Assembly: GCA_024408105.1 (NCBI GenBank)
Contig: JAKSVG010000001.1
Span: 1 to 50,853 of the forward strand
Reading direction: 5' to 3'
From: Bacilli bacterium
GTDB lineage: Bacteria > Bacillota_I > Bacilli_A > RFN20 > CAG-826
DNA length: 50,853 nucleotides
A program made the position numbers and the translations under genes. Shown one piece after another: positions 14,225 to 24,038 of this stretch. The number at the start of each line of letters is the position of its first letter. Within the stretch, counting starts at the first letter, position 1. The notes under the pieces are model-generated. The model had not been told where the DNA came from. It was given only the letters and a program-made list of their open reading frames with translations, and made no database searches.

Positions 14225-14248
14225 GACCACCTATGGTGGTCTTTTCTT
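14225..14248 (+). terminator. Terminator between rpsO and pnp
   Basis: GACCACC/GGTGGTC (14225-14231/14235-14241) with loop TAT is followed by TTTTCTT. Confidence 0.88.
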
Positions 14249-14325: not shown

Positions 14326-16485
14326 ATGAAAAAAGTATTCGAATTAGAATTCGATGGCCGTAAGTTGGTTGTTGAAGCCGGTGAAATCGGTAAACAAACA
14401 AAAGCGGCAGTCTTGGTTCGTTATGGAGACACGGTCGTTTTAAGTAACGTTACAATGTCAAACCACACTGTTGATTGGGACTTTTTCCCACTCTCAGTAG
14501 AATACCAAGAAAGAATGTACGCAGCTGGTAGAATTCCAGGTTCATTCTTAAGACGTGAGACACGTCCAAGTAATCATGCTATTTTAGCAAGTAGAATTAC
14601 AGACAGAACTATGCGTCCTTTATTCCCTGAAGGATTCCGTAACGAGGTTCAAGTTGTCTCACAAGTAATGGCTGTTGATTATGATTATTCACCAGAAATC
14701 ACAGCTATGTTTGCAAGCTCATTATGTGTTTGCATAAGCGATGTTCCATTTAATGGCCCAATCGCAGGTGTTTACGTTGGTCGTGTTGATGGCAAGCTTG
14801 TTATCAACCCAACAGTTGAACAAAGAAAAGTATCTGATATCGATCTATGTGTTGCTGGTACTGAAGAAGCTATTAACATGGTCGAAGCAGGCGCCGCTGA
14901 AGTCAGCGAAGAAGACATGCTTGATGCTTTGATGTTTGGTCACGAAGCAATCAAGAAATTATGCCGTTTTGAAAAAGAAATTATTAAAGAAATCGGCGTT
15001 GAGAAAAACAAAAACATTCAATTCAAGGTTATTCCAGATGAATTGCGTGCTGAAGTTACAGCAAAAGTTGATAAAGAATTAAGAAAAGCTGTTTCAACAA
15101 AAGATAAATTAGAAAGACAAGAAAAAATTGATTCAATCGAAAAAGCGACTGAAGAAGAATACGCAGCCAATGGTGCTGATGCAAAAGTAGTTCAACAAGT
15201 CCATGAAATTCAAGAAGACATCGTTCATCATGAAGTTCGTAGATTAATTGCTGAAGACAAGATTAGACCAGATGGCCGTAAACCAGACGAAATTCGTCCA
15301 TTAGATGCTCAAGTTGATATTCTTGGGCGTCGTGTTCATGGCTCTGCCATGTTTACACGAGGTCAAACACAAGTCATCTCAGTAACAACACTTGGACCAT
15401 TATCTGATAAACAAATTATAGATGATTTAACTCCAGAAGAATCAAAGAGATTTATGCATCATTATAACTTTCCACAATGGTGTGTTGGTGGCACAGGAAA
15501 ACTCGGTGTTATTGCACGTAGAGAAATTGGTCATGGTGCATTAGGTGAAAGAGCCCTTTCATATGTTATTCCTTCAGAAGAAGAATTCCCTTACACAATT
15601 AGACAAGTAAGTGAAGTTGTCGAATCAAATGGTTCTTCATCACAAGCTTCTATTTGTGCTGGCTGTATGTCACTTATGGCTGCTGGTGTACCAATAAAAG
15701 CAATGGTTTCCGGTATTGCTATGGGTCTTATCTCCACAGGTGACTTAAATGATCACCCATATACTATTCTTACCGATATCCAAGGTCTAGAAGATCACTT
15801 CGGTGATATGGACTTTAAGGTTGCAGGTACAGAAAAAGGTATTACAGCACTTCAAATGGATATCAAGATCGATGGTGTTACAAGAGATGTTTTAGCTCAA
15901 GCATTAGCTCAAGCGCATAAAGCTCGTAAAGAAATTCGTGATGTTATGTCAAAAGCAATTGCTGAACCTCGTAAAGATGTTGCAGAATTTGCACCTAAAC
16001 TCGATAAGCTCACAATTGATGTTGATAAAATCCGCGATGTTATTGGTACCGGTGGCAAAGTCATCAATGAAATCATTGCTCAATGCGATAAAGTACAAAT
16101 TGATATTGATGATGATGGCCACGTAGTAATTTACCATATGAATCGTGAAATGATTAACAAAGCAAAACAAATGATTGAAGATATCGTTCGCGAAGCGAAA
16201 GTTGGTGAAGTTTACGAAGGACAAGTAACTCGTGTAGAAGATTACGGTGCATTTGTAAAATTATTTGGTGCTTGTGAAGGCTTATGCCACGTTTCACGTT
16301 TAGGCTGGGGATTTATCGACAAAGCACAAGACGTTGTAAAAGTTGGCGATGTATTAAAAGTACGCGTTACTGAAATTGATGATCACGGAAAAGTGAAAGT
16401 ATCACATCGCGAATTTGTTGAAAAACCTGCTGGCTATGTTGAAAAACCAGTAGAAAAGAAGCCTTTTAAAGGTCATAAAAAATAA
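14326..16485 (+). CDS. pnp: Polyribonucleotide nucleotidyltransferase (PNPase)
   Basis: A 719-residue 3 prime to 5 prime phosphorolytic exonuclease. It has two RNase PH domains (about 1-230 and 310-545) joined by a helical domain, then KH (IRDVIGTGGKVINEI) and S1 (VGEVYEGQVTRVEDYGAFVKLF) domains. Active-site stretches GQTQVISVTTLG and KVAGTEKGITALQMDIK are intact. AAAGGAG precedes ATG 14326. Its last base is the first of the next ATG, so the redox genes and the RNase J homologue downstream form one operon with it. Confidence 0.97.
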   Translation: MKKVFELEFDGRKLVVEAGEIGKQTKAAVLVRYGDTVVLSNVTMSNHTVDWDFFPLSVEYQERMYAAGRIPGSFLRRETRPSNHAILASRITDRTMRPLFPEGFRNEVQVVSQVMAVDYDYSPEITAMFASSLCVCISDVPFNGPIAGVYVGRVDGKLVINPTVEQRKVSDIDLCVAGTEEAINMVEAGAAEVSEEDMLDALMFGHEAIKKLCRFEKEIIKEIGVEKNKNIQFKVIPDELRAEVTAKVDKELRKAVSTKDKLERQEKIDSIEKATEEEYAANGADAKVVQQVHEIQEDIVHHEVRRLIAEDKIRPDGRKPDEIRPLDAQVDILGRRVHGSAMFTRGQTQVISVTTLGPLSDKQIIDDLTPEESKRFMHHYNFPQWCVGGTGKLGVIARREIGHGALGERALSYVIPSEEEFPYTIRQVSEVVESNGSSSQASICAGCMSLMAAGVPIKAMVSGIAMGLISTGDLNDHPYTILTDIQGLEDHFGDMDFKVAGTEKGITALQMDIKIDGVTRDVLAQALAQAHKARKEIRDVMSKAIAEPRKDVAEFAPKLDKLTIDVDKIRDVIGTGGKVINEIIAQCDKVQIDIDDDGHVVIYHMNREMINKAKQMIEDIVREAKVGEVYEGQVTRVEDYGAFVKLFGACEGLCHVSRLGWGFIDKAQDVVKVGDVLKVRVTEIDDHGKVKVSHREFVEKPAGYVEKPVEKKPFKGHKK

Positions 16486-17927
16486 TGATTGATGTTCTTA
16501 TTATAGGCGCTGGAATTACTGGCTCGCTTATAGCGAGAAAACTTTCATCATACAATTTGAATGTTCATGTTTTAGACAAAGAGAACGATGTTGGAAATGT
16601 CACATCAATGGCAAATTCAGCAATAGTTCATTCTGGATATGATCCTGTTCCTGGAACAAAAAAAGCAAAATTCAATGTTCTTGGTAATTCGATGTATCCT
16701 AAACTTTGTGAAGAACTCGATGTGCATTTTAAGATGATAGGTTCATTAACTGTCGCTTTATATGAAGAACAACTTAAATTATTAGAAAATCTCGCTGAAA
16801 GGAGTAAAGAAAATGGCGTTAAAGTCAAACTCCTTTCAGCAGATGAAGTTAGAAAACTTGAACCGAACATTTCAAGTGAGGTAAAAGGAGCTTTACTAGC
16901 GCCAACTGCTGGTATAGTTAATCCTTTTACATTAACTGTTCACGCTATGGAAAATGCCGTTGATAATGGTGTTTGTCTTCATTTAAATGAAGAAGTAATT
17001 AAAATTGTTAAAAACGGCAATTTCTATAACGTTGTGACAAAGAGTAACTCCTATCAAGCAAAAGTAGTTATTAATGCTGCTGGTGTTCATTCAGATCAAA
17101 TTCACGCAATGGTGGAACCGATAGATTATCAAATAACTGCTAGAAAAGGAGAATATTTTGTCCTAGATCATTACAAAGAGGGATTAGTTAATCATGTCAT
17201 TTTTCCTTTACCAAGCGAAAAAGGCAAAGGCATTTTAGTTAGTCCAACAACAAGTGGAAACTACATTGTTGGTCCATCAAGCGAAATAAATGATGATAGA
17301 GAGGATGTTTCTACAGATAAATTGACACTCGATGAAGTTAAAAGACAAGCTTTGGATATGGTTCCATCAATTCCATTCAATCAAGCGATAAGAACATTTT
17401 CTGGGAATAGACCAACTCCATCGACTCATGATTTTATTATAGACTTTGCAAAATGCGATAAACATTTTATAAATGTTTCTGGAATAGAATCACCAGGATT
17501 AGTATCATCGCCAGCAATCGCGGAATATGTAGTTAACGAACTTGTAAGTCAAGTTTTAACACTAACTAAAAAAGAATCTTTTAATCCTTATGTTAGAAAG
17601 AGAATTGACTTAGCAAAATTATCTTATAAAGAAAGAAACGAACTAATCAAAAAAGATCCTAACTTCGGATATGTAGTTTGTAATTGCGAAAAAGTTACTT
17701 TGGGAGAAATTTTAGACGAACTTTCTAGAAGCGTTCCTCCAAGAAGTGTGAAAGCCTTAAAGAAAAGGACTAGAGCAGGTTTTGGAAAATGCCAGGGTGG
17801 ATTTTGTCAGCCTTTAGTAATCAAAGCATTAGCAAAACATTTTGATATTCCTTGTTCAGAAGTTCCATTAGATGGACCAGGTTCTGAAATCTGCAAATTT
17901 GTAACAAAAGGTGGTAACGATAAATGA
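16485..17927 (+). CDS. GlpA-like FAD-dependent dehydrogenase with C-terminal BFD-like Fe-S domain
   Basis: A 480-residue flavoprotein. The Rossmann motif GAGITGSLIARKL (8-20) is followed by a DAO-type oxidoreductase fold (about 1-365). A BFD-like domain at about 395-455 supplies cysteines in VCNCEK and GKCQGGFC, likely ligands of a [2Fe-2S] cluster. This matches anaerobic glycerol-3-phosphate dehydrogenase subunit A and related oxidoreductases. The next two genes complete the usual triad, each overlapping by four bases (ATGA). No glpK or glpF is nearby, so the substrate is inferred only. Confidence 0.85.
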   Translation: MIDVLIIGAGITGSLIARKLSSYNLNVHVLDKENDVGNVTSMANSAIVHSGYDPVPGTKKAKFNVLGNSMYPKLCEELDVHFKMIGSLTVALYEEQLKLLENLAERSKENGVKVKLLSADEVRKLEPNISSEVKGALLAPTAGIVNPFTLTVHAMENAVDNGVCLHLNEEVIKIVKNGNFYNVVTKSNSYQAKVVINAAGVHSDQIHAMVEPIDYQITARKGEYFVLDHYKEGLVNHVIFPLPSEKGKGILVSPTTSGNYIVGPSSEINDDREDVSTDKLTLDEVKRQALDMVPSIPFNQAIRTFSGNRPTPSTHDFIIDFAKCDKHFINVSGIESPGLVSSPAIAEYVVNELVSQVLTLTKKESFNPYVRKRIDLAKLSYKERNELIKKDPNFGYVVCNCEKVTLGEILDELSRSVPPRSVKALKKRTRAGFGKCQGGFCQPLVIKALAKHFDIPCSEVPLDGPGSEICKFVTKGGNDK

Positions 17928-19180
17928 TTGAAAAAGATTTAGTTATCATCGGTGGCGGCTCTGCTGGTATGGCATCAGCATTAGAAGCACATAATCAAGG
18001 CATTAAAAGCATATTGATTCTTGAAAAGAATCCTTATTTAGGTGGGATTTTAAATCAATGCATTCATAATGGCTTTGGCTTGCATGAATTCAATGAGGAA
18101 CTAACAGGTCCTGAATTTATGACAAGATTTTCAGATCTAATTGAAAAAAATAAAATCGAATACCGCTTACTATCAAATGTTTTAAGTATATCTGAAGATA
18201 AAGTAGTAACATACTCAAATAGTTATGAGGGACTTGTTGAAATTAAAGCTAAAGCTATTATTTTAGCTACAGGTTGCTATGAAAGAAGTCCTGGTGCAAT
18301 CCAAATACCTGGAACAAGGCCTAGTGGTGTATATACAGCAGGTCAAGCACAATTATATTTAAACTGCTATGGTTATTTAGTTGGCAAAAGAGTTTTTATT
18401 CTCGGCAGTGGTGATATCGGCTTAATTATGGCAAGAAGAATGACGCTAGAAGGAGCAAAAGTTCTTGGAGTTGCTGAGTTAATGCCTTATAGCGCTGGTT
18501 TGAATAGAAATATCGTACAATGTTTAAAAGACTTTGACATTCCTTTATATTTATCTCATACAGTTAAAGAAGTTAAAGGAAAAGAACAACTTAGTAAAGT
18601 TGTTATTGCAAAAGTTGACGAAAAATTTAATTTTATTCCTGGCACAGAAATAGAATTTGATGCGGACACATTACTTTTATCAGTTGGATTGATACCAAAT
18701 TGCGATTTAATTAGCAAATTAGATATTTCATTTAGCAAAACTCGCGGTGCTAATGTCACACAAGATATGGAGACAGATGTTCCAGGAATATTTTCGGCAG
18801 GCAATGTTTTACATGTTCATGATTTAGTTGATTATGTTGTAAGTGAGGCAAAAGAAGCCGGAAGAGGCGCTGCAAAATATCTTAATGGTAAATTAACCCA
18901 CAAAGGGCATGTTTATTCTCTAAAACCTGGTTATGGCATAGGTTATGTAGTGCCTCAAAGAATATTTATAGAAGATGCGGGCGAACAAATAATATTAAAA
19001 TTTAGAGTGACACGTCCATTTAAAGATATCAATATCTTTATAAAAGAAAATGATAACTTAATAAAGAAAATATTTAAGCCTGCAATTATTCCAAGCGAAA
19101 TGGAAATAGTAAAACTTGATAAATCGTTATTTAAATCATTAGATAACACAATTGATGTTTATGTGGAGGAGAAAAAATGA
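17924..19180 (+). CDS. GlpB-like NAD/FAD-dependent oxidoreductase
   Basis: A 418-residue flavoprotein. The FAD motif is GGGSAGMASALEA (9-21); the second Rossmann motif GSGDIGLIMARRM (about 161-173) would bind NAD. CYERSPGAIQIPGTRPSG and FSAGNVLHVHDLVD are typical of the NAD(FAD)-dependent dehydrogenase subunit that accompanies GlpA-like proteins. Its role is probably to pass electrons between the GlpA-like subunit and NAD or a membrane acceptor. The ATG overlaps the previous stop, and its stop overlaps the next start. Confidence 0.82.
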   Translation: MIEKDLVIIGGGSAGMASALEAHNQGIKSILILEKNPYLGGILNQCIHNGFGLHEFNEELTGPEFMTRFSDLIEKNKIEYRLLSNVLSISEDKVVTYSNSYEGLVEIKAKAIILATGCYERSPGAIQIPGTRPSGVYTAGQAQLYLNCYGYLVGKRVFILGSGDIGLIMARRMTLEGAKVLGVAELMPYSAGLNRNIVQCLKDFDIPLYLSHTVKEVKGKEQLSKVVIAKVDEKFNFIPGTEIEFDADTLLLSVGLIPNCDLISKLDISFSKTRGANVTQDMETDVPGIFSAGNVLHVHDLVDYVVSEAKEAGRGAAKYLNGKLTHKGHVYSLKPGYGIGYVVPQRIFIEDAGEQIILKFRVTRPFKDINIFIKENDNLIKKIFKPAIIPSEMEIVKLDKSLFKSLDNTIDVYVEEKK

Positions 19181-19521
19181 AAGAACTAATTTGCATTACT
19201 TGTCCACGTGGATGTCATTTGAAAGTCGATGATAATATGAATGTAACCGGAAATTTCTGCCCTCGCGGAGCAAAATATGCTGTTAATGAATTGACGCATC
19301 CTGTAAGGACACTTACATCAACAATAAAAACAAACAGCGAATTGAATCCAAGGTGTCCTGTTAAGAGTAAAGAACCTTTGCCTAAAGAATTAATCTTCAA
19401 GGCGATGGACGAGATTAATAAGGTTGTTGTTAAATTGCCTATCAATATAGGTGATATAGTTATTAAAAATGTTTGTGGAAGTGGCGTTGATATTGTTGCC
19501 ACTAAAAAGATAGATAAATAA
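19177..19521 (+). CDS. DUF1667 iron-sulfur-type protein of the GlpA/GlpB triad
   Basis: A 114-residue protein whose N terminus holds CITCPRGC (residues 5-12) and NFCPRGAKYA (about 26-35), then PRCPVKSKEPLPK. These cysteines are a family signature and may bind a metal or Fe-S cluster. DUF1667 proteins are regularly the third gene after GlpA-like and GlpB-like flavoproteins in anaerobic Firmicutes and Thermotoga. It overlaps the preceding stop (ATGA). The RNase J homologue starts 14 bases later. Confidence 0.85.
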   Translation: MKELICITCPRGCHLKVDDNMNVTGNFCPRGAKYAVNELTHPVRTLTSTIKTNSELNPRCPVKSKEPLPKELIFKAMDEINKVVVKLPINIGDIVIKNVCGSGVDIVATKKIDK

Positions 19522-19534
19522 TTGGGAGTTTTAT

Positions 19535-21211
19535 ATGGAAGATAATATTCGTATCTTTCACCTCGGTGGACAAGATGAGGTTGGAAAGAATCTTACTGTT
19601 GTTGAAATAAATGGCGATATTTTTGTTTTAGATTGTGGTTTTAAACTCCCTGATAAATCAAAACACGGAATTGACTTTATAATTCCTCGTTTCGATTATT
19701 TAATCGAACATAAAAGCAAAATTAAAGCTTATATTTTAACTAGAGGAAACGATATAGCCCTTGCTGGCTTGCCATTTTTGATTAAAAGAGCACCTGCGCC
19801 AGTAATATGTACTGATATAACAAGGATCTTTTTAGAATCTTTTTGTGAATATGCTCATGCAAAGGTTGAATTTGATTTTGATATCATTGAGCCTAGCGAC
19901 GTCAGGATGATAGCAGGAAGAAAAATTAGATTTTTCCCAACAGCAACCAACACTCCAAGAAGTAATGGTGTAGCTATTTCAACAGATAAAGGCAATATTG
20001 TTTTTATTGATGACTTTGTCATTGATAATAACTGCGATAATGGTTATATTTCAAATTCGAAAGCAATGGCAGATATCGCAAGTGAAGAAACCCTTTTATT
20101 AATGTTGGATTCATTTTTCTCAGAAAGACCAGGCTATACAATTCCATCATTTAAATTAGCACCATTAATTGAATCATCATTTAAGGATGCACCAGGAAGA
20201 ATTTATATAGCTCTTGAATCACTCGATATTTATAATATCGAAATGGCCTCAAAACTAGCCTTTAAATATGGGAGAAAGATAATCTTTTTTGATGAAGGCA
20301 CGGAAACGTTATATAAAACAGTTAATAAATTTTATAAAGAAAGAATTCCAACAAAAAATATTGCATCTATTGACGATGCACTAAGATTGCCTCCTAAAGA
20401 GGTTGCTATTTTTATAACTGGTTTTGGAACGCGCATTTATCATAAAATTTCATTATTTGGTTGCAATGAACACAAAGATAAGCGTCTAAAACTTTTACCA
20501 GATGATACATTTATCATGGGGTTGCACGCCTCAAATTCAACAGAATTGCTTGCTTCAGAAGCAGTTGATGAACTTTATCATAATGATGTGGCAAAAATCA
20601 TTTATTTCAAAAAGAATGAATTTTTAACAATGCATCCTAGCGAAGAAGATTTAAAAACAATGATTTCTATTTTTAGGCCTAAATATTATGTGCCAATTAA
20701 TGGAACTTATAAGCAACTTCTTTCTAATGCGATGATTGCAGTAAATATGAATATTGGTCTAACATATACGAATATTTTTATCTTAGATAACGGCATGGTT
20801 TTAGACATAGACCAAAAAGGTGCATTCATATCAAAAGAAAAGGTGCTGACTGGTGAACTATATGTTGATGGTTTCAACATTGGTTTAGGTGATCTAAAAA
20901 CAATGGAACAACGTCGTACACTAGGAGATGATGGTGTTGTTGTGATTGGAGCAGTTGTTTCTTTAGAAACAAGAAAAATTACATACGGTCCTGATATTCA
21001 AACTCGTGGTTTGGTTTATGTTAAAGAAAGCGAATCATTGCTAAAAGAGTTGGAACGTTTAAGTCTTAACGCAATCAACGAAGAGCTTAAATGCGCACAG
21101 CCAAACTTAAAAAATATAGAAGAAAAAATCAAAGATGATTTGTTTAAGCACATTAAGCGTGTTACAACAAAATCTCCAATGATAATTTCTATGATAAACA
21201 AAGAAAAATAA
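19535..21211 (+). CDS. RNase J homologue lacking the metal-binding active site
   Basis: A 558-residue protein collinear with RNase J from HLGGQDEVGKNL to the C-terminal domain. RNase J is a metallo-beta-lactamase/beta-CASP ribonuclease that needs two zinc ions. Here the HGHEDH motif reads RGNDIA (70-75), and the THSIPDS motif reads ATNTPRS. The late HVSGH region reads TMHPS (365-369), and PVHGEY reads PINGTY (387-392). Only an aspartate in the DDF motif (about 160) seems kept. Loss of nearly all ligands predicts no catalysis. It most resembles a J2-type structural partner of an active RNase J1 that must be encoded elsewhere. GGGAG precedes ATG 19535. Confidence 0.88.
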   Translation: MEDNIRIFHLGGQDEVGKNLTVVEINGDIFVLDCGFKLPDKSKHGIDFIIPRFDYLIEHKSKIKAYILTRGNDIALAGLPFLIKRAPAPVICTDITRIFLESFCEYAHAKVEFDFDIIEPSDVRMIAGRKIRFFPTATNTPRSNGVAISTDKGNIVFIDDFVIDNNCDNGYISNSKAMADIASEETLLLMLDSFFSERPGYTIPSFKLAPLIESSFKDAPGRIYIALESLDIYNIEMASKLAFKYGRKIIFFDEGTETLYKTVNKFYKERIPTKNIASIDDALRLPPKEVAIFITGFGTRIYHKISLFGCNEHKDKRLKLLPDDTFIMGLHASNSTELLASEAVDELYHNDVAKIIYFKKNEFLTMHPSEEDLKTMISIFRPKYYVPINGTYKQLLSNAMIAVNMNIGLTYTNIFILDNGMVLDIDQKGAFISKEKVLTGELYVDGFNIGLGDLKTMEQRRTLGDDGVVVIGAVVSLETRKITYGPDIQTRGLVYVKESESLLKELERLSLNAINEELKCAQPNLKNIEEKIKDDLFKHIKRVTTKSPMIISMINKEK

Positions 21212-21278: not shown

Positions 21279-24038
21279 ATGAAAAAAAGATTTGCAATTA
21301 CTAAAGACACATTACTATCACTTATTGGCATAGCCATTTGTCTTTTCTGTCTTGTTATTATTTGCTCAGCAAATTCTATTTTTTCATTTTTATCGGTAGG
21401 AATTCTAGGGGCTTTTGGATTTATCGGCTTTTGGATATTAATTCCTGCTGTTTTCTTACTTGGAGTTTACTTATTGCTTAGACGTAAACTAATAAAATTT
21501 AGAGTAGATATTTCTTTATGGGGAATATACCTAATTATTCTTGCTATTTTAATCCTTTCATCAGCATGGGGCAGTGAAGGTCAAAGAGTAATATCAAAGA
21601 CGATTGAAGGAAATCCAACAGTCGTTATTTCGATGTTTAATACCGGAAAAGATTCAGCAGGCAACACTTACGAATTTCTTCAATTTAATACATGCGTAGC
21701 TTACATACAACAAATTGCCAAAAATTTTGCAATCGCACACAAACAAACAGATGATTTAGTTAAAGGATTTGACATTGCCAACATAAATTTAGGCGGTGGA
21801 TACATAGGCTATGTTCTTTGTGGTGCACTTAATAGTGCAACAACACCTATCGGCACAACAATCATTTCTTGGCTAATTATAGTAGTCGGATTATGCCTTG
21901 TATTAAATCGACAAATCAAAAAATTATTTTATTTAATCAAAAACAAAGCTAAACATGATGCTGCTCAAAAAGCCGCTATAGAAGATGTCTATTCGCAAAA
22001 AGTTGACGATGATTTTGGAATGCATAATTTTTCATATGATGAATTAAACACATTTGAGCAAAATGAAATCGATGATTCAACTATTGAGACGCAAAATAAT
22101 GATGAGCCATCAAATCAACAGTTAAGTGATCTAACAATGAGAACTTACAATAGCACTCACGGACTACAAAAACCAAAGTTTTCGTTAAATGGAGAGATTC
22201 AACACGCTAATTCTCAAACTCAATTGTATCAAACAAATCCGTTTGCACGTGTTAGCGAGCTAGTCGTTGAACAAGATGTCAGTATTCCTGTTCAAGAAAT
22301 AGCGCCTGTTGAAACTGAAGAAAAAATTATGGAAACTGAAAGTCCAATCAACGATTTAGCAATAAATCAAACAAATGTTCAAACTCCAATAACTCAAGAA
22401 CCGCCTAAAGAGGTTGTTGCAGAAGTTGTGACAGATCCTCAGCATAGGCCTCAGCCTAAGGCTGTTATTAGACCGGAATTCAAACTTCCACCATTAAATT
22501 TACTTGATTATCATGAGAATCTTGATGATTTAACAAAAAATGACGAATCCTGTGCAAGTAGAATTGAATTATTAAACCAAGCATTTGTAGACTTAAAAGT
22601 AGGAGCCTCTGTTAGTGGCTATACAATTGGACCTTCAGTTACACGTTACGATATAAAAACAAATACTAGTGTTTCTGTAAGCGCGATTAAGAAAATCATT
22701 GAAGATATTTCGATTCGTCTCGGTGGTGTTATGGCAAGATTTGAGCCAATTGTTTTAGGTAAGCCAACATCAGGATTAGAAATTGAAAATGCAATAAGAA
22801 CAAATGTTGGATTAAGAGAGGCGATGGAGAAATTACCTGAAGGAGAGAAATTTCTTTGCAATATTCCGTTTGGTAAAGATATTTCAGGTCAACTTGTACA
22901 TGCTAATGTCAAAGATTTCCCTCATATGCTTGTTGCTGGCACAACAGGATCAGGAAAATCAATATTTATGCATTCTACGATTCTCGCACTTATAATGCGA
23001 AACACGCCATATCAACTTAAATTACTTTTAATCGATCCAAAGAAAGTTGAAATGTCCTATTATCGCGAAATTCCACATTTACTTTGTCCAAATATTAGCG
23101 AACCACGTAAAGCTCTAGTAGCTATGAAAAAACTTGTCGACGAAATGCAACGTAGATACAATTTGTTCGAGCAAAATAGAGTTCGTGATATAAAAGAATT
23201 TAATGCTTTTGCTAAAGCAAACGGAATTGAACCATTACCAGTTATTGTCGTCTGCGTTGATGAATACGCTGACTTAAGCGATGACTGCAAAGAAATACGC
23301 GATCCAGTCGTTAGAATTGCTCAGAAAGCAAGGAGTGCTGGTATCCATTTAATTATTGCAACGCAGCGTCCATCTGTTGACGTTATTGATGGCGTTATTA
23401 AAGCGAATATTTCAACACACGTTGCATTGATGGTTTCTAGTTTTGCAGATTCATCTGTAATTATCGGCGAAAGTGGTGCTGAAAAATTATTAGGCAACGG
23501 CGATATGATTGTTGATTGTGCCTCAATATCAAAGACAAGTAAGCCTCGTGTACAAGGATGCTTTGTTGATACTCCTGAAATCAATCGAGTGACAGATTAT
23601 CTAAGAAAACAAAGTGCACCATTATATGATCCTGAATTTTTAGATTTAACTGAGCACACAGAAGAAATGCCAACTCAATCATCTGAAACTATCGTCGATT
23701 TAGCTTCATTGAAAGAACAAAGTGAAGAAAAACTTTACGAAACAATTAAATTAGATCTTGCTAATAAAGAATATTGCTCGATTTCATTTATTCAAAGAAC
23801 ATATGGCGTCGGTTTCCCAAAAGCTGGGCGTTTATTTAATAAATTAGTAAAAGAAGGTATTGTTGCCCCTAGTGGTGATGCAAGAGGATGCAAAGTTCTA
23901 GTTCATTTAACTGAACAAAGTGATTCCTCTCCAACATCAATAGATCAATCAAATGTTTACGAAGATACATCTGAAAATGAACAAAATTCTTCTTTAGAAG
24001 AAAAAACAATAGAAAATAATGATTTAGGAGAGAACTAA
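21279..24038 (+). CDS. ftsK: DNA translocase FtsK/SpoIIIE
   Basis: A 919-residue motor that pumps chromosomal DNA through the division septum. About four membrane helices lie in residues 10-215. A low-complexity linker rich in Gln, Glu, Asn and Thr runs to about 390. The RecA-like motor follows with Walker A GTTGSGKS (554-561) and Walker B VVCVDEYADL. The C-terminal gamma winged-helix domain (YETIKLDLA to LVKEGIVAPS) recognises polarity sequences. ATG 21279 has no ribosome binding site. The pullulanase gene starts two bases after the stop and uses a GGAGA site in its end. Confidence 0.93.
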   Translation: MKKRFAITKDTLLSLIGIAICLFCLVIICSANSIFSFLSVGILGAFGFIGFWILIPAVFLLGVYLLLRRKLIKFRVDISLWGIYLIILAILILSSAWGSEGQRVISKTIEGNPTVVISMFNTGKDSAGNTYEFLQFNTCVAYIQQIAKNFAIAHKQTDDLVKGFDIANINLGGGYIGYVLCGALNSATTPIGTTIISWLIIVVGLCLVLNRQIKKLFYLIKNKAKHDAAQKAAIEDVYSQKVDDDFGMHNFSYDELNTFEQNEIDDSTIETQNNDEPSNQQLSDLTMRTYNSTHGLQKPKFSLNGEIQHANSQTQLYQTNPFARVSELVVEQDVSIPVQEIAPVETEEKIMETESPINDLAINQTNVQTPITQEPPKEVVAEVVTDPQHRPQPKAVIRPEFKLPPLNLLDYHENLDDLTKNDESCASRIELLNQAFVDLKVGASVSGYTIGPSVTRYDIKTNTSVSVSAIKKIIEDISIRLGGVMARFEPIVLGKPTSGLEIENAIRTNVGLREAMEKLPEGEKFLCNIPFGKDISGQLVHANVKDFPHMLVAGTTGSGKSIFMHSTILALIMRNTPYQLKLLLIDPKKVEMSYYREIPHLLCPNISEPRKALVAMKKLVDEMQRRYNLFEQNRVRDIKEFNAFAKANGIEPLPVIVVCVDEYADLSDDCKEIRDPVVRIAQKARSAGIHLIIATQRPSVDVIDGVIKANISTHVALMVSSFADSSVIIGESGAEKLLGNGDMIVDCASISKTSKPRVQGCFVDTPEINRVTDYLRKQSAPLYDPEFLDLTEHTEEMPTQSSETIVDLASLKEQSEEKLYETIKLDLANKEYCSISFIQRTYGVGFPKAGRLFNKLVKEGIVAPSGDARGCKVLVHLTEQSDSSPTSIDQSNVYEDTSENEQNSSLEEKTIENNDLGEN

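Follow-up and report, generated by a model that had tools for sequence, protein, structure and literature searches.

An RNase J2 homologue of an uncultured gut bacterium has lost its metal site and is most likely a structural partner of RNase J1

The window, i.e., the whole 50,853-nucleotide stretch of DNA analysed here, encodes an RNase J2 homologue in which all but one of the di-metal ligands have been replaced. The loss extends across the genus, the gene is under purifying selection, and the genome retains an intact RNase J1. In our opinion the window RnjB is most likely a pseudonuclease which serves the intact J1 as a structural or allosteric partner, acting through its C-terminal domain. 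The features on which this reading is based are collected in Table 1.

Table 1. Features of the rnjB region, in window coordinates
Feature	Position	Strand	Basis and remarks
pnp, PNPase, first gene of the string	14326..16485	+	NF008805, 928 bits (above the cut-off)
Three overlapping genes between pnp and rnjB	16485..19521	+	profile matches; order conserved in relatives
rnjB, RNase J2 homologue, metal site lost	19535..21211	+	558 aa; TIGR00649, PF17770 and PF22505 matches, J2 clade, AlphaFold2
Motif II, RGNDIA for HGHEDH	19742..19759	+	residues 70-75; alignment
Motif III, ATNTPRS for THSIPDA/S	19943..19963	+	residues 137-143; H142 replaced by T138
Motif IV, FIDDFVID for HTGDFKID	20003..20026	+	residues 157-164; D164 kept as D160
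Motif B, FLTMHPS for HSSGHPS	20621..20641	+	residues 363-369; H364 lost, H368 kept as H367
Motif C, PINGTY for PIHGDY	20693..20710	+	residues 387-392; H390 replaced by N389
C-terminal (oligomerisation) domain	20876..21199	+	residues 448-555; PF17770, 70.4 bits; J2/J1 distance ratio 1.02
ftsK/spoIIIE-type DNA translocase, next gene after rnjB	21279..24038	+	profile match

The rnjB product belongs to the RNase J2 clade and has the full RNase J fold
The rnjB gene starts with ATG, just 3' of a ribosome-binding-like GGGAG. Its product matched TIGR00649 with 333 bits (E 2.7e-99) and, although the curated subfamily cut-off of 400 bits is not reached, it is by its sequence an RNase J homologue. In the Pfam profile search we found RNase_J_C (PF17770) and RNase_J_b_CASP (PF22505), but no match to the metallo-beta-lactamase (MBL) domain. 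The top match among solved sequences was the S. epidermidis RNase J2 8yyj (phmmer 4.7e-78, residues 4-555), while the AlphaFold2 model (mean pLDDT 91.2) found its best PDB match with Foldseek in chain A of the B. subtilis RNJ2-RNJ1 integrative model 9a5v, the TM values for its two chains being 0.92 and 0.91. The three domains of RNase J (MBL, beta-CASP and C-terminal domain) are present and collinear over the full length, in agreement with the first-pass annotation, which had argued from collinearity that the gene is no pseudogene.

In a tree of J1 and J2 sequences built without the motif columns, the second copies grouped into a single clade (SH-aLRT 99) in which S. epidermidis J2 is basal, separate from the J1 clade (SH-aLRT 100) which holds the J1 proteins of B. 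subtilis and S. epidermidis. The rnjB product falls in the J2 clade and not in the J1 clade. This placement and the matches to 8yyj and 9a5v bear out the earlier assignment to the J2 type and, judged from sequence and predicted fold, the reading frame is the RnjB (RNase J2) orthologue of this uncultured gut bacterium, to whose genus Candidatus Fiminaster equi also belongs. In some genomes of one family (f18) there is a third RNase J, which branches outside both clades and whose active site is complete, e.g., L167 (G134:C1:2030215-2031852).

Only one of the seven metal ligands is retained
In RNase J1, whose numbering we use for the ligands, metal site 1 is formed by H74, H76, H142 and D164, and metal site 2 by D78, H79, D164 and H390 (PMC7864078, PMC5383250). 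The window J2 was aligned to the genome's own intact J1, to 88 J2s from the order and to solved J1 and J2 chains. Six of the seven ligands are replaced: site 1 reads R70, N72, T138 and D160, site 2 reads I74, A75, D160 and N389, and D160 (J1 D164) is the sole metal ligand retained. Thus, of the residues that mark a catalytically active RNase J (HxHxDH, H142, D164 and H390) only D164 is found, and the first metal site, whose retention is a usual though not strictly defining J2 trait, is lost as well, with R70, N72 and T138 standing for H74, H76 and H142.

The strings quoted in the first-pass annotation lie where it had placed them (19739-20706, residues 69-391), and its claim that almost every metal ligand is replaced stands. 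Its readings RGNDIA, ATNTPRS and PINGTY were confirmed; TMHPS for HVSGH was out of register, since HxSGH aligns with F363-L-T365-M-H367 and its second histidine, H368 in J1, survives as H367. In S. epidermidis J1, H368 belongs to the phosphate-recognition or 5'-end site and takes part in catalysis, and is not a metal ligand (PMC7864078). We rejected the possibility that the ligands are present but shifted elsewhere, because the alignment with J1, S. epidermidis J2 and the relatives runs without gaps through motif II and through the cores of motifs III and IV; the replacement residues, which differ among genus members, also speak against it. The ligands are replaced, not displaced. Both metal sites have been destroyed, from which we infer that the protein should not itself cut RNA.

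A weak nuclease or phosphodiesterase activity could still persist at a relocated or single-metal site, with D160, D73, D192, H367 and substrate-assisted chemistry. The family does tolerate altered sites, since a single metal is enough for S. epidermidis J2, which has H80/E166 replacements (PMC7864078). However, that protein keeps H76, H78, H144 and E166, and the window J2 has lost three of these four; moreover, the D160 equivalent is kept in only 4 of 23 genus members, and E. faecalis J2 is inactive with one such histidine mutated (PMC5383250). We therefore regard residual activity as quite improbable.

The ligand loss is genus-wide and recurs within the J2 clade
At least one RNase J copy was found in 96 of the 96 genomes searched. 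Every ligand is kept in the J1 copies of the order (41/41) and of the class (45/45), 86 copies being compared. Among the J2s of the 23 genus members sampled, window genome included, D78, H79 and H390 are never kept, H142 is kept once, D164 in four, H76 in eight and H74 in 11. As these 23 members lose the same positions while the J1s of the order and class stay intact, the loss seen in the window is not due to chance. Outside the genus, a complete first metal site is present in 59 of 64 order J2s, with H79 mostly changed to Q, N or E and H390 mostly to K or R, and by their sequences these proteins look like one-metal J2s. None of the 130 J2 copies in the larger tree has H390.

On the J2 tree, seven changes are needed to account for the near-complete loss of the first site (at most one ligand left), the exact figure being tied to a quickly built tree in which 36 forks are open. 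Separate losses of this kind occur in Mycoplasma-type genomes, whose copies contain in-frame TGA, and in other families. The window lineage is, as far as the aligned copies indicate, one case of recurrent J2 site loss. J2 was not detected in a few order members (G072, G073 and G083; 86-93% complete, each with a J1-like match). The protein may be dispensable there, though the absence is perhaps partly a matter of genome incompleteness; a partner that some members can do without counts against the role we favour for RnjB.

An intact RNase J1 is encoded elsewhere in the genome
The search for an intact RNase J in the rest of the genome, which the first-pass annotation had proposed, was successful. 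In the window genome (1.03 Mb, 73% complete) there is a single other RNase J, an RNase J1 at G000:C2:26155-27789, which is 27% identical to the window J2 and has all ligands intact (HGHEDH, THSIPDA, HTGDFKID and PIHGDY). Directly upstream of it lies def, a peptide-deformylase-like gene named from a reading of its translation. RNase Y is encoded as well, and with both enzymes present catalysis is not lost from the cell. No third, intact-site J2 was found in this 73% complete genome.

Gene order around rnjB is conserved
The three genes that follow pnp encode a glycerol-3-phosphate oxidase-like protein, an FAD oxidoreductase and a 114-aa cysteine-containing protein. The rnjB start lies 13 nt past the preceding stop, and all genes from pnp to ftsK are on the + strand. 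A terminator-like hairpin is found upstream of pnp (14225-14241), and from pnp to the end of rnjB the + strand contains only one terminator-like site, which is weak and lies within rnjB. Among 80 named relative loci, the fetched flanks contained, on the same strand, pnp in 52, the oxidoreductase in 51, the 114-aa gene in 51 and ftsK in 70, and relatives from the window genome's family share the order around rnjB. This tightly packed string supports, but does not prove, the earlier suggestion that rnjB shares one operon with PNPase. We take the B. subtilis rnjB neighbourhood, with pnp and ftsK/spoIIIE, to be comparable. The redox-type trio (16485-19521) is kept between pnp and rnjB in most family relatives. 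In S. epidermidis, too, rnjB follows pnp directly (PMC6447361).

Identity to the window genes within the genus (loci L255-L292) is mostly 83-92% for pnp and about 36-53% for rnjB, and rnjB thus evolves at a much higher rate than pnp, its operon neighbour.

The C-terminal domain of J2 is constrained as in J1, the catalytic half is not
Between close genus J2 pairs dN/dS was 0.05-0.14 (Nei-Gojobori); these pairs are relatives which themselves have no metal site, as the nearest relative of the window protein is at most 55% identical and dS would saturate. Together with the open frames conserved in the genus members searched, these values led us to reject a pseudogene or an assembly error. That rnjB is a decaying gene in transit to loss might be suspected from its rapid divergence relative to pnp and from the order members in which J2 is missing. 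The open frames and the dN/dS values contradict this, as do the conserved gene order and a C-terminal domain that is constrained as strongly as that of J1, so that decay is already largely refuted and we consider it very improbable.

We compared the divergence of the two paralogues domain by domain. In nine genus genomes with both, the J2/J1 ratio was 2.69 for the MBL domain, 3.05 for beta-CASP and 1.02 for the C-terminal domain; in 35 order genomes the corresponding values were 1.87, 2.49 and 1.02. The Pfam scores for J2 and J1 of the window genome follow the same division, being 70.4 vs 71.5 bits for the C-terminal domain and 28.5 vs 163 bits for beta-CASP, with 64 bits for the MBL domain of J1 and no match in J2. 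Constraint on the C-terminal domain is thus unchanged with respect to J1, and the catalytic half of J2 is relaxed. It is the C-terminal domain that governs J1 dimerisation (PMC7864078).

A mirror-tree comparison of the J1 and J2 C-terminal domains gave a partial r of 0.50, which fell to 0.13 (p 0.06) without the long-branch genomes G002, G030 and G055; as the signal rests on these three, we dropped coevolution of the two domains as evidence. In the same genomes the C-terminal domains of J1 and J2 are both unusually diverged (L022/L125, L027/L127 and L056/L099, respectively). Gene conversion between the two C-terminal domains was not seen, identity being 0.235 within and 0.231 between genomes.

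The RNA path of the window J2 is eroded
In S. coelicolor RNase J the residues F52, F241, R267, Q311 and I343 form the RNA base sandwich and pocket (PMC4652760). Their equivalents in the window J2 are L38, E228, E254, G298 and S333, and these five positions are not conserved across the genus, which argues against the canonical RNA path as a retained function. The first-pass annotation had proposed a purely structural or RNA-binding role. A dead nuclease might indeed still bind 5' ends or structured RNA, either presenting them to J1 or shielding them. The model retains the fold and interdomain architecture, and the equivalent of J1 H368 (H367 in the window J2), a 5'-phosphate site residue, is kept in the J2 of 21/23 members of the genus and of 63/66 others in the order. 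At the place of J1 S366, also a phosphate site, 20/23 genus J2s (e.g., L004, L011-L017, L030) have K or R, though the window protein has T. A K/R beside the retained histidine could possibly make a non-catalytic phosphate contact. Nevertheless, the replaced channel residues, and the 2.7-3 times faster divergence than in J1 of the catalytic half that forms the RNA channel, make RNA binding unlikely as the explanation, and of the two proposed roles it is the structural one that is favoured.

A probable role as a partner of J1
The structural reading is favoured because the C-terminal domain is conserved as in J1 and the catalytic domains are not, and because S. aureus carrying J2-AGA, in which two first-site histidines are mutated, grows like wild type, whereas deletion of J2 leaves the cells severely sick (PMC3937233). 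The window J2 would most likely pair with the intact J1 through its C-terminal domain, stabilise or allosterically stimulate it, and dock it in the RNA-decay machinery. Such a role has parallels in S. epidermidis, where J2 stimulates J1 and it is J1 that provides the active site (PMC6447361), and in E. faecalis, where the J2 mutants H69A/H71A are inactive and bind J1 with a similar Kd (74 vs 81-89 nM; PMC5383250). On the other hand, the catalytic histidines of E. faecalis J2 are required for pilus expression, and the mutants fail to restore pili (PMC5383250), so that J2 activity matters in some species, which speaks against a non-catalytic reading; we also count against it that D160 and H367 are still present in the window J2.

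What counts in J2 is disputed, its weak activity or just its being there alongside J1; the S. aureus data point to presence and those of E. faecalis to activity. A genus which has given up the entire metal site and yet maintains the gene under strong selection constitutes a natural experiment on the presence-only view. The J2s of the class, ranging from HGHEDH to RGNDIA, could serve as a graded set in which to ask at what point activity disappears and if J1 is still stimulated. As a speculation, which we hold with considerable doubt, RNase J2 may repeatedly have evolved in nature into an obligate non-catalytic subunit, comparable in bacteria to CPSF100/INTS9. It would be held chiefly through its C-terminal assembly domain, leaving the half that once carried the active site to acquire a lineage-specific binding function. 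There is also a warning for annotation, as such proteins would be named 'ribonuclease J' yet should not cut RNA.

Comparison with known systems
The J2 proteins described so far have weak nuclease activity and associate with J1. RnjB of Bacillus, Staphylococcus and Enterococcus resembles the window protein in being a J1 paralogue beside an intact J1, in having lost the D78/H79/H390 site and in its fold, and the window protein lies in the clade of S. epidermidis J2. However, the described J2s keep H74, H76, H142 and D/E164 together with weak activity, whereas the window J2 is without three of these four and, unlike them, has altered RNA-path residues. The S. aureus J2-AGA protein (PMC3937233) has likewise lost the H74/H76 equivalents and retains a structural role, but it is a laboratory double mutant; the loss in the window is natural, deeper and genus-wide. 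CPSF100 and INTS9 are also dead MBL/beta-CASP paralogues kept beside active CPSF73 and INTS11 (PMC4819959), but they belong to another family and to large eukaryotic processing complexes, and the likeness is one of convergence. The second RNase J of the Mycoplasma type (L198, L199, L206, L207, L209) shares both the J2 clade and the near-complete ligand loss, but in a separate lineage, by an independent loss and with other replacement residues. In the open-access literature searched we found no description of a natural near-complete J2 site loss, though one may exist. A weakened RNase J2 is a known kind of protein; what is new is how deep the loss of the site goes and that it has happened repeatedly in nature.
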